Positions 7,049-17,627 of a stretch of 48,860 bases of DNA are shown here, in pieces. This stretch comes from Nitrospiria bacterium (GTDB lineage Bacteria > Nitrospirota > UBA9217). How positions within the stretch are numbered: position 1 is the first letter of the stretch; every line of letters begins with the position of its first letter. The position numbers and the translations under genes are program-made. The notes under the pieces are model-generated. The model saw only the letters and a program-made list of their open reading frames with translations. It made no database searches and had not been told where the DNA came from. The stretch is from NCBI GenBank assembly GCA_919902495.1, contig CAKKRC010000031.1:1-48860 (forward strand). Direction: 5' to 3'.

Positions 7049-7948
7049 TCAGGCCCCTCCTTTCAGGATGGAAAAGAAGGAATCCTCCAGCGACGCGCGC
7101 TTGAGCGTGCATTCAATGAGCTTGCGGCCCGGGATGGTCATGAGCTTCATGAAGTCGTCCAGACGCTCCGCGGGGATCTCGCCCTTGACGCTCGTGGGCG
7201 TGCGAACGAGGACCTTCAGAAAATCGGGCAGCGGATCGAAGGGCTCGCACTCGACGTGGTAGGTCTCGAGACTCGTGCCGCGAAGGCGCGCCATCTCGTC
7301 CTGCACGATCACCTTTCCCCTGTTCATGATGGCGGCGCGGTTGCAGATCATCTCGATCTCCGACAGGACGTGGGAGTTCAGCACGATCGTGGCGCCGTTC
7401 TTATTCAGCTCCAGCAGCACGTCGCGGAACTCCTTGACCGCCAGGGGGTCGAGTCCCCGTGTGGGCTCGTCGAGGAACACGAGCTTCGGGTTGTTGATGA
7501 GGCACTGCGCGATGCCGACCTTCTGCTTCATGCCCTTGGAGCACTTCGAGACCCGGAGGTCCTTGAACTCACCCAGACCCACGCGGTCGATGGCGCGCGT
7601 GACGGTGAGGCCGCTGTCGATGCCCTGCAGCCGGGCGTAGTAGCGGATGGCCTCCTGCACGGTGAGGTACTGGTGATAGTGCGGCTCTTCGGGGAGGTAG
7701 GCGATGTCGCGGAAGAGGCTGTTCCCCGGCTCGGGCGTGCGGCCGCAGACGGAGACCGTCCCCGAGTCGGGCCGGACCAGGCCGAGGAAGCAGTACATGG
7801 CCGTGGACTTGCCCGCGCCGTTCGGACCCAGGAGGGCGAAGATGTCCCCTTCCTGCACGGTGAGCGTGAAGGAATCGAGCGCCCGGATGGTACCCCTAAA
7901 GAGGCCCTTCCGGAAACCAACGGAGACGTTCTCGGCAGAGACCATCAT
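7049..7948 (-). CDS. ABC transporter ATP-binding protein
   Basis: 299 residues. Walker A is GPNGAGKST (41-49), the Q-loop region follows (YLPEEPHYHQYLT), the signature is CSKGMKQK (136-143), Walker B is LVFLDEP (156-162) and the switch His lies in LNSHVLSEIE. A C-terminal extension of about 80 residues follows the ATPase core, as in CcmA/NatA-type exporter ATPases. The start overlaps the stop of the thioredoxin-like gene as ATGA, so the three genes 8808-6235 are one translationally coupled operon. Confidence 0.92.
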   Translation of the reverse strand: MMVSAENVSVGFRKGLFRGTIRALDSFTLTVQEGDIFALLGPNGAGKSTAMYCFLGLVRPDSGTVSVCGRTPEPGNSLFRDIAYLPEEPHYHQYLTVQEAIRYYARLQGIDSGLTVTRAIDRVGLGEFKDLRVSKCSKGMKQKVGIAQCLINNPKLVFLDEPTRGLDPLAVKEFRDVLLELNKNGATIVLNSHVLSEIEMICNRAAIMNRGKVIVQDEMARLRGTSLETYHVECEPFDPLPDFLKVLVRTPTSVKGEIPAERLDDFMKLMTIPGRKLIECTLKRASLEDSFFSILKGGA

Positions 7949-8808
7949 TTCATGCAGAACTCCTTGTTGAGCGCCGTGATGACCTCAGCGTCCGTCTTCC
8001 CCGCGAGGTCCATGGTCTTGAGCTTCGCCTTGATGTCCTTCGAGGTCTTGCAGGTGCATTCCATCAGCTTGTGGGTGCACCCGCAGGGGCAGTTCATCTT
8101 CTCCGCGATCTCCCGGGCGCGGCCGGGAGGCACATCGTCCTCGGGGTCGGTCTTCTTCTCCTCCGTCATTGTCGCGGCCGAGGCGACCTGCGGCCCGGTC
8201 GTCCGCTGCAGGCGGAGGAAGGCTTCTTTAGTGATGCCCGTTCCAGCGCTGATCGCCGCGAGCGCGGCCCGAAAGGGTGCCTCGAAGGCGACGTCGGCGT
8301 TCTGGATCGGCCCCACTTCGTAGAGCTGGACGGTCCCATCAGCGCCGATGAAGACCGTGGTGGGGAATGCGCGGACCGCCAAGGCCTTCTGCGCGGCGCC
8401 CTTGTCGATCGCCACGGGATAAGTGACGCCGTAGTACTTCAAGAAGTCCCGCACCGCGTCGGCGCTCTCGTTCGCGTCGATGCCGATCATCACGAAGGGC
8501 TCGTCCTTATGCTTCTCCGCGAACCGGACGAGCTCCGGCATCTCTTCCTTGCAGGGCCCGCACCAGGTGGCGAAGAAGTTCAGGACGATGGCCTTCTTGC
8601 CCACGTGCTCGGAGAGGACGAACTTCTCGCCGTTCAGCAGATCGAGCGTCAGTTCGGGTGCAGGTCTCCCCTGCCACGCGGCCGGCTGGCGGAGGAAGTC
8701 GAACTGCTGCTTCTCCTCCTCGGTGGGCTGTCTCTTTGCCGAGAAATGGAACAGGAAGGCGGTGCAGAAAAGGATCAAAGCGATGATGCCTGCGGTTCTG
8801 GTGCGCAA
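7945..8808 (-). CDS. TlpA/ResA-like thioredoxin with C-terminal CcmH-like Cys domain
   Basis: About 287 residues from a TTG at 8808 behind GAGGGAGGG; the longer frame to 9060 runs back into intergenic sequence and lacks a sensible N-terminus. A signal anchor (GIIALILFCTAFLF) is followed by a thioredoxin fold with NFFATWCGPCKEE (CxxC near residues 83-86) and the cis-Pro loop AFPTTVFI. After a linker comes NCPCGCTHKLMECTC with repeated Cys, then a helix ending in FCMK; this resembles the PCYCGC/CcmH-type redox domain. The protein is probably periplasmic and reduces or delivers thiols, for example in cytochrome c or metal-centre assembly; this role is inferred. Confidence 0.8.
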   Translation of the reverse strand: MRTRTAGIIALILFCTAFLFHFSAKRQPTEEEKQQFDFLRQPAAWQGRPAPELTLDLLNGEKFVLSEHVGKKAIVLNFFATWCGPCKEEMPELVRFAEKHKDEPFVMIGIDANESADAVRDFLKYYGVTYPVAIDKGAAQKALAVRAFPTTVFIGADGTVQLYEVGPIQNADVAFEAPFRAALAAISAGTGITKEAFLRLQRTTGPQVASAATMTEEKKTDPEDDVPPGRAREIAEKMNCPCGCTHKLMECTCKTSKDIKAKLKTMDLAGKTDAEVITALNKEFCMK

Positions 8809-9002
8809 GATCCCTCCCTCGCATGCTTGGTGCTGATCGTAAACGTACGACGGGTAATGATAAAGCGGTCTTGCGCCGGGAGACAGGAGAAGTGCGGGAA
8901 CAGCCGCTCGCAGAAGGGTGTCTCCGGTGGAATGAGAATAGTACAGACCATAAGAAAATGCAAGGATTACGGCGGGGTATTTTAGGGGTATTCGATGACG
9001 AA

Positions 9003-9033
9003 GAAGGCCGGAGAAAATAGATCTCCGGCCTTC
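9003..9033 (-). terminator. GGCCGGAGA-type terminator hairpin (copy 1)
   Basis: A perfect 12-bp stem (9003-9014 with 9022-9033) around a 7-nt loop. It lies downstream of the htpG tail remnant just as a related hairpin lies downstream of intact htpG, so it appears to have been duplicated with the tail. Confidence 0.7.
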
Positions 9034-9068
9034 AATGTTCATTCTTTCGATACTATTCACACCGCATC

Positions 9069-16221: not shown

Positions 16222-16548
16222 CTACCCGGTTTCTATGACGCGGAATCCCGCTTTTTTCCATCCTTCGACACCGCCGTCCAGAATGTTCGCGTGCGAAAAT
16301 CCCTGAGCCATATATTCCGCTGCCCGACCGGCAGCGCTTGCGTCTTTCTGTCAGACTCAGTAAAAGATGACCTCCTGTTCCCTGGACAGGGCGGGCAACC
16401 GGGTCTTGAAGTCTTGCAGCGAAATGGCGTCCTGCAGGTGCGATCTCCTGAACTTTTCCACGTCCTCGTACGCGCACACGAGAAGGGCCTCTCCGGATGT
16501 CACCTTGTTGCGCGCCTCTTCTGCAGAAATTCGTATTGGTTCGGTCAT
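16222..16548 (-). CDS. Rhodanese domain protein, candidate selenoprotein with two in-frame TGA (Sec64, Sec66)
   Basis: 108 residues from an ATG at 16548 behind GGAGG (TEPIRISAEEARNKV) to a TAG at 16222. The frame crosses TGA at 16359-16357 and at 16353-16351. Before them lies EQEVIFY; after them QKDASAAGRAAEYMAQGF, then ILDGGVEGWKKAGFRV, a normal rhodanese C-terminus. In relatives the loop reads YCxCP: the first TGA sits at the catalytic Cys and the second at the Cys two residues on. A 7-bp hairpin with a GGTCG loop begins 14 nt after the second TGA, in the window for a bacterial SECIS. Both stops being selenocysteine (UVU) is the simplest reading. The alternative is a gene killed by two nonsense changes. 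Rhodaneses move sulfur or selenium from a persulfide on this residue. Confidence 0.75.
16318..16336 (-). promoter_or_regulatory. Putative bacterial SECIS stem-loop
   Basis: On the minus strand CGCTGCC and GGCAGCG pair perfectly around the loop GGTCG. E. coli fdhF has a similar small hairpin with a GGU-containing loop at a comparable distance after UGA. It lies inside the coding frame, as bacterial SECIS elements do. Confidence 0.6.
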
Positions 16549-16904
16549 GGCAGACCTCCGACTGACGAATAGGGAGCGTATCGTTAAGTATAGCATAGAC
16601 GGAGAGTGTTCATGCTTTGATTAGATCACCCGTCGGAGGGTGCCACGCGGATTGGAGGGTAAGATGTGGCTGCGAGGAGGGAACCGATCGAATGGTCAGC
16701 TGCGAAATCAAAAAGACCGGATTGGGTATCCTCCAGCCCTTGCGCCAAACTATTTCTTTGCTTAGAACATCCCTCAGGTGTCCTGAGAGGTGTCCTGATG
16801 ATTATCAAGTCTTTCTCCGTGCATTTTAGTTTTCGGGGGTAGTCGCCAAGGTCATACCGATGCGGGTCAGACATGACTTCCTGACTTTATTGACTCCCCA
16901 AAGG
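16549..16904. other. Intergenic region without a supported gene
   Basis: 356 bases between the PIN toxin gene and the rhodanese. It contains a short direct repeat (AGGTGTCCTGA twice, near 16776-16799). An 82-codon open frame here has no family character or ribosome site and is not called. Confidence 0.5.
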
Positions 16905-17327
16905 CTACCGTTCATCGCCAATAAGCGCCAGGAACTCCTCGGGAGTCATGACGGGGATCCGGTCCGTACGGTAATCGGCCTTGTTCCTGGTGATCAGGCA
17001 GTCTGCTTTTACGTGGAGCGCTGAATAATACTGCACGGCGTCCTCGAAATCCTTGAAGGTCGAGACAAGCGAGAGATCGATCACCTTTTCATCGACTGCC
17101 GCGACCCGAAAGACGATCCTGAGCTTTTCCAGGACCCGCATCGCCTTGTCCCGTTTCAGTTCCTTCGACAGGAGATAGAACATCGTCGGGAAGCTCTGCG
17201 CTGAGAGATAACCCTGGAGCTTCTTTTCCTCGATCAGGGAGAACAGCCTGGCGGCAGCAGCATAATGGGGGTCCCTCTTCAGGAAGATGTCGAGAATGAC
17301 ATTGATATCGCAGAGGACACTCTTCAC
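16905..17327 (-). CDS. PIN domain toxin (VapC family)
   Basis: 140 residues from a GTG that overlaps the antitoxin stop as GTGA. The PIN fold acidic residues are visible: CDINVILDIFLKRD at the N-terminus, the central Glu region, FEDAVQYYSAL and CLITRNKADY near the C-terminus. VapC-type proteins are magnesium-dependent ribonucleases that cut tRNA or rRNA and stop growth when the antitoxin is lost. The 4-base overlap with the upstream gene is typical of a toxin-antitoxin pair. Confidence 0.9.
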   Translation of the reverse strand: MKSVLCDINVILDIFLKRDPHYAAAARLFSLIEEKKLQGYLSAQSFPTMFYLLSKELKRDKAMRVLEKLRIVFRVAAVDEKVIDLSLVSTFKDFEDAVQYYSALHVKADCLITRNKADYRTDRIPVMTPEEFLALIGDER

Positions 17328-17572
17328 CGGTACTTCTCCGCAAGATGCTTCCGGTATCCCGCGCGCAGCTGCTCAGCATCCTGCTTGCCCGAAAGCACAC
17401 CTGACACCTCGTACAGGACCGGCGATTCCCGCACCTCCTGCGCGCCCTGGTCCGCAACGGCCTTAAAATAGTCCTCGACCATGCGCGACAGGCTGACACC
17501 TTTCCTGCTCGCTGTCTTTTTTGCCTTCCGGATGACAGTGTCGTTCAGCCGCAGGGTCAGCTTCGTGGTCAT
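17324..17572 (-). CDS. Ribbon-helix-helix-like antitoxin of the PIN toxin
   Basis: 82 residues from an ATG at 17572. The N-terminus TTKLTLRLNDTVIRKAKK followed by GVSLSRMVEDYF is a ribbon-helix-helix DNA-binding fold (DUF6364-like). The C-terminal tail would wrap the toxin. It lies directly upstream of and overlaps the PIN gene. The inverted repeat in front of it is the likely site of autoregulation. Confidence 0.85.
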   Translation of the reverse strand: MTTKLTLRLNDTVIRKAKKTASRKGVSLSRMVEDYFKAVADQGAQEVRESPVLYEVSGVLSGKQDAEQLRAGYRKHLAEKYR

Positions 17573-17589
17573 GAGCGCGTCCTCCTTAT

Positions 17590-17627
17590 GAGACGTACAT
17601 ATATTATAGTATTGTACGTCACCTGTC
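17590..17627 (-). promoter_or_regulatory. Promoter with overlapping operator for the toxin-antitoxin pair
   Basis: GACGTACA (17590-17597) and TGTACGTC (17611-17618) form an inverted repeat. On the minus strand TTGACA (17627-17622) and TATAAT (17606-17601) lie on either side of one half-site with a 15-base gap. Binding of the antitoxin here would block the promoter. Confidence 0.65.

Follow-up and report, generated by a model that had tools for sequence, protein, structure and literature searches.

The 2026 census of prokaryotic selenoproteins lists 119 families and subfamilies, and a UxU rhodanese motif is absent from it (PMC13188914). The same census includes NF041203 (rhodanese_LYCAU, rhodanese-like selenoprotein form 3), for which it gives a CxU motif with one selenocysteine (Sec) (PMC13188914). 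Selenoproteins with two Sec are represented by TsoB (NF045694, rhodanese/DsbD fusion-like selenoprotein), a long fusion protein with the Sec residues spaced as UxxxxU (PMC13188914), and by the Prx-like selenoproteins, in which a UxxU motif is held in a thioredoxin fold (PMC2398784). A full-text literature search for UxU together with selenocysteine returned no prokaryotic selenoprotein survey among its matches. Among rhodaneses with a single Cys nucleophile and no Sec, GlpE and the rhodanese domain of YgaP both carry the DVR motif.

The gene described here lies in a window of 48,860 nucleotides (the whole stretch of DNA that was analysed) from a Nitrospiria bacterium. Judging from sequence comparison, it very probably encodes a rhodanese with two Sec residues, at UGA64 and UGA66, both inserted by SelB and tRNA-Sec through one SECIS hairpin (Table 1).

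The reading frame and the Sec machinery

Table 1. Positions of the rhodanese gene and its sequence features in the window
Feature	Position	Strand	Remarks
UxU rhodanese coding sequence	16222..16548	(-)	108 aa, UGA64 and UGA66 predicted to be read as Sec; ATG 16548, stop TAG
Shine-Dalgarno GGAGG	16555..16559	(-)	6 nt 5' of ATG 16548
Cys25	16474..16476	(-)	invariant among aligned subfamily members; VCAY versus DVR of canonical rhodaneses
UGA codon 64, canonical rhodanese nucleophile position	16357..16359	(-)	40 members: Cys 29, Sec 11
UGA codon 66, predicted second Sec	16351..16353	(-)	found in 40/40 members
Asp69, active-site loop	16342..16344	(-)	Asp/Glu in every aligned member
bSECIS hairpin CGCTGCC-GGTCG-GGCAGCG	16318..16336	(-)	7-bp stem, GGUCG loop 16329-16325

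The original prediction described a frame with a good ribosome site, running from ATG to TAG and interrupted by TGA at codons 64 and 66 alone, and the sequence bears this out, with the two codons standing in the context FY-UGA-V-UGA when TGA is translated as U. Truncation by ordinary annotation had also been foreseen; this part stands, although the length of 79 codons given for the remnant does not, since the stop comes after codon 63. Because ordinary annotation ends every such protein within its active site or right at it, they have probably been overlooked in most genomes. A general reassignment of UGA is ruled out, as TGA serves as an ordinary stop in 6 of the 15 frames listed around the rhodanese gene.

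Directly upstream of the rhodanese gene, at 16905-17590 (-) in the window, a DUF6364 gene overlaps a PIN_3 domain gene, and the two likely form an antitoxin-toxin pair. Elsewhere in the window, at 7945-9060 (-), a thioredoxin-like protein (WCGPC) is encoded with a C-terminal Cys-rich stretch (MNCPCGCTHKLMECTC) that recalls CcmH-type domains.

The search for Sec machinery on which the original prediction depended was successful: the assembly bearing the window (3.67 Mb, 97% complete) contains tRNA-Sec (64 bits, anticodon TCA), SelA (610 bits), SelB (384 bits), and SelD (365 bits). The SelD match (L053) has one in-frame TGA and is probably a Sec-containing SelD. Across genomes, SelB is present in 36 of 39 that carry the rhodanese subfamily versus 21 of 40 compared genomes that lack it (Fisher p 1e-4). 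The three member genomes in which SelB was not found are G006 (74% complete), G354 (91% complete), and G043 (1.6 Mb assembly), although tRNA-Sec is present in both G006 and G043.

Relatives and the SECIS hairpin

A first scan identified relatives with ~50% identity in Desulfobulbaceae and other deltaproteobacteria, carrying the motifs FYCAU, FYUNU, and FYUNU. Profile searches of 396 genomes from the window's phylum and 395 from the phylum of the Desulfobulbaceae gave a subfamily of 40 complete members (39 plus L121) in two phyla, comprising 11 UxU proteins, each from a separate assembly, and 29 CxU proteins; a damaged gene, L126, is the 41st. In these searches of the two phyla, CxC was found in none of the 40 complete members, and since the profile query had Cys at both sites, CxC members would have been found. 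The expectation that related rhodaneses read YCxCP holds for more distant homologues but not for the nearest relatives, which are CxU, and in the alignment of the 40 members the first site holds either Cys or Sec and the second always Sec. The distant YCxCP homologues are plentiful in group f9, and SelB is absent from the three f9 genomes sampled.

That the gene is a pseudogene, its UGAs being genuine stops or else sequencing errors for TGC or TGT, is extremely improbable. Such a reading can point to L126 (1501-1761), a CxU relative in which a stretch immediately following the UGA, hairpin region included, is missing and the frame is lost, through either gene damage or assembly error. A degraded downstream frame in relatives had been named beforehand as an outcome that would count against a selenoprotein, but it is seen in only this one of 41 genes; elsewhere the frame is intact and under purifying selection, with dN/dS downstream of the UGAs of 0.03-0.33 in close pairs. 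Moreover, the paired UGAs of the window gene recur at the same two codons in ten further assemblies (11 members in all), ruling out the chance origin that had already been considered unlikely, and the synonymous sites of the hairpin covary. Taken together, comparison of the members shows that both UGAs have been retained, to all appearances as sense codons, with a conserved SECIS and a downstream domain under selection.

The GGTCG-loop hairpin was likewise correctly placed by the original prediction, its loop lying 21 nt past UGA66 and 27 nt past UGA64 in what has proved to be a covarying SECIS. The published model of the bacterial SECIS has a loop of 3-9 nt, a stem of 4-16 bp, a G in the first two loop positions, and a spacing of 16-37 nt; the window hairpin agrees with this geometry for both UGAs, given that 27 nt still falls within the spacing range (PMC13188914). 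In nearly every member, a hairpin begins its loop 21 nt past UGA66, with the same spacing in CxU and UxU genes. Codon choice within the hairpin is strongly skewed: 27 of 27 members use GGT for the loop Gly, against 14% of Gly codons elsewhere in the same genes (p 1e-23), and 37 of 38 use GCC for the preceding Ala, against 49% (p 6e-11), while a wobble-wobble pair across the stem arms is T-A in 19 members, C-G in 14, and G-C in 1 (Fisher p 4e-7), related sequences being counted as independent in all three tests. Double-changed pair cells number 30, a value reached in 0 of 500 shuffles. These compensatory changes at synonymous positions, shown by comparison of the aligned genes, support a conserved SECIS.

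Total hairpin energy relative to synonymous recoding gave no separation between the family (mean z -1.3) and CxC controls (-1.5), so the case for the SECIS rests on codon choice and covariation. When the window was searched for further frames that are broken by TGA and have a hairpin, the search gave dozens of hits that are noise from GC-rich shadow frames, and a hairpin by itself therefore proves nothing. The conserved hairpin is apparently common to both UGAs.

A different division of labor between the two codons would have UGA66 alone decoded as Sec, with UGA64 mostly terminating translation or taking another amino acid and the double-Sec form a minor product. CxU is the commoner state, UGA66 is universal, and the constant 21-nt spacing looks tuned to UGA66. 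Termination at UGA64 would, however, leave no protein, and yet purifying selection acts on UxU genes beyond the UGAs (dN/dS 0.08 for the UxU pair L068/L070); UGA64 is itself within the published SECIS range (PMC13188914), and UxU is found repeatedly, in several lineages and also in another family. Decoding of UGA66 alone is consequently regarded as improbable, and decoding of both codons as Sec is the reading carried forward here.

On the subfamily tree, which is poorly resolved, UxU and CxU interchange at least seven times with the two Sec columns masked, and the window UxU protein is placed among CxU relatives; it follows that Sec66 is fixed whereas the canonical nucleophile swaps between Cys and Sec. 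A single origin of UxU is weakly rejected on this poorly resolved tree (AU p 0.032). The motif also occurs inside the known CxU family NF041203, where L094 scores 154.9 bits and L095 also reaches the cut-off of 115. The Nitrospiria genome itself encodes, on another contig, a second double-Sec rhodanese, VYUTU, of the NF041203 type (L151, G000:C95:4263-4622; 123.8 bits versus 115); the protein has an apparent signal peptide, and a SECIS-like hairpin is spaced as in the window gene. In the same genome, L149 and L150 (G000:C25:34567-35401) are tandem CxU rhodaneses, FYCDU and VYCAU, each of which apparently has a signal peptide.

Fold and proposed chemistry

The Pfam Rhodanese profile PF00581 matches residues 9-100 of the 108-aa product (E 9e-9, 36.1 bits versus a gathering cut-off of 22.2), and the AlphaFold2 model, built from relatives, shows a rhodanese fold (pLDDT 92) that matches GlpE at TM 0.77 and the YgaP rhodanese domain at TM 0.67. 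In alignments with solved rhodaneses, codon 64 falls at their YC, the nucleophile, and an acidic residue three positions past Sec66 is invariant among aligned members. The prediction of a small, cytosolic, single-domain rhodanese with both UGAs read as Sec through one hairpin is well supported by comparison. In two UxU relatives, L068 (1501-2184) and L070, the rhodanese runs in frame into a YHS (seleno)domain of the NF041384 type (152 bits for L068, cut-off 70).

The original prediction had suggested that two Sec in this arrangement could give diselenide-like or Se-transfer chemistry. In the mechanism proposed here, Sec64 would occupy the nucleophile position of classic rhodaneses, with Sec66 providing an extra selenol two residues on. 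Sec64, or Cys64 in the CxU relatives, would accept sulfane sulfur or attack an oxidised chalcogen bond; Sec66 would then resolve the intermediate, releasing H2S or the reduced product and leaving an Se-Se (or Se-S) bond to be reopened by a cellular thiol reductant or by the invariant Cys25. Resolution by Sec66 through such a bond would turn a transferase site into a two-electron reductase. We infer that both residues are Sec, that one SECIS serves the two, and that the pair acts as a redox couple; its role in reducing sulfane sulfur or another oxidised chalcogen is a tentative prediction.

In the active-site loop, where the present subfamily has its invariant acidic residue, Arg is common among rhodaneses with anionic donors and is present in GlpE and YgaP. 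The acidic residue, together with a second chalcogenol two residues off that would tend to reduce a persulfide, argues against a persulfide/perselenide transferase that would carry sulfur or selenium, as opposed to a reductase. A carrier of this kind, as proposed for Se-substituted rhodanese, would suit the fold and the nucleophile position, and one review discusses whether rhodanese carries selenium in biologically available form (PMC9369223), but such a role is considered unlikely here. Only somewhat unlikely is a role as a thiol peroxidase, thiol-disulfide oxidoreductase, or metal(loid)-binding detoxification protein, for which the rhodanese fold would be a scaffold only. A redox function is attributed to most selenoproteins (PMC13188914), and the YHS domain joined to L068 and L070 is putatively metal-binding; against this, no gene for a reductase, a peroxidase, or metal resistance is a conserved neighbour across the 24 loci compared. 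These loci share no partner at all that would point to a substrate.

The UxU rhodanese lends itself to two questions that nature has already set up: whether UGAs two codons apart can share a single bacterial SECIS, and what is gained when Sec is the nucleophile of a sulfur-transfer fold. For the latter, the repeated Cys/Sec swaps at the first site, against a constant Sec at the second, provide a ready comparison series.

Comparison with described proteins

On balance, the evidence favours a rhodanese family with an obligate second-site Sec in which the nucleophile has repeatedly turned to Sec, giving a U-x-U diselenide site and a single SECIS used twice by the same ribosome at UGAs six nucleotides apart. 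GlpE and YgaP resemble it in fold and nucleophile position, and differ from it in lacking Sec. The Prx-like selenoproteins also have two Sec near each other in the active site, but their UGAs are three codons apart versus two in the window gene. TsoB shares both a rhodanese domain and two Sec, although the window protein has no match to NF045694 and its relatives score 16-24 bits (cut-off 805).

NF041203 shares with the window subfamily the rhodanese fold, a Sec two residues past the nucleophile position, the active-site loop C/U-x-U-x-x-E, and the position of the hairpin. As the census gives that family one Sec, the double-Sec (UxU) form of this kind of rhodanese appears to be new. The window protein scores 44.8 bits against NF041203 and the tested relatives 53-66, below the cut-off of 115, and the group is therefore treated as a sister subfamily and not as a member, distinguished by VCAY with Cys25 in place of DVR, by the lack of an export signal, and by the two Sec that it may carry.
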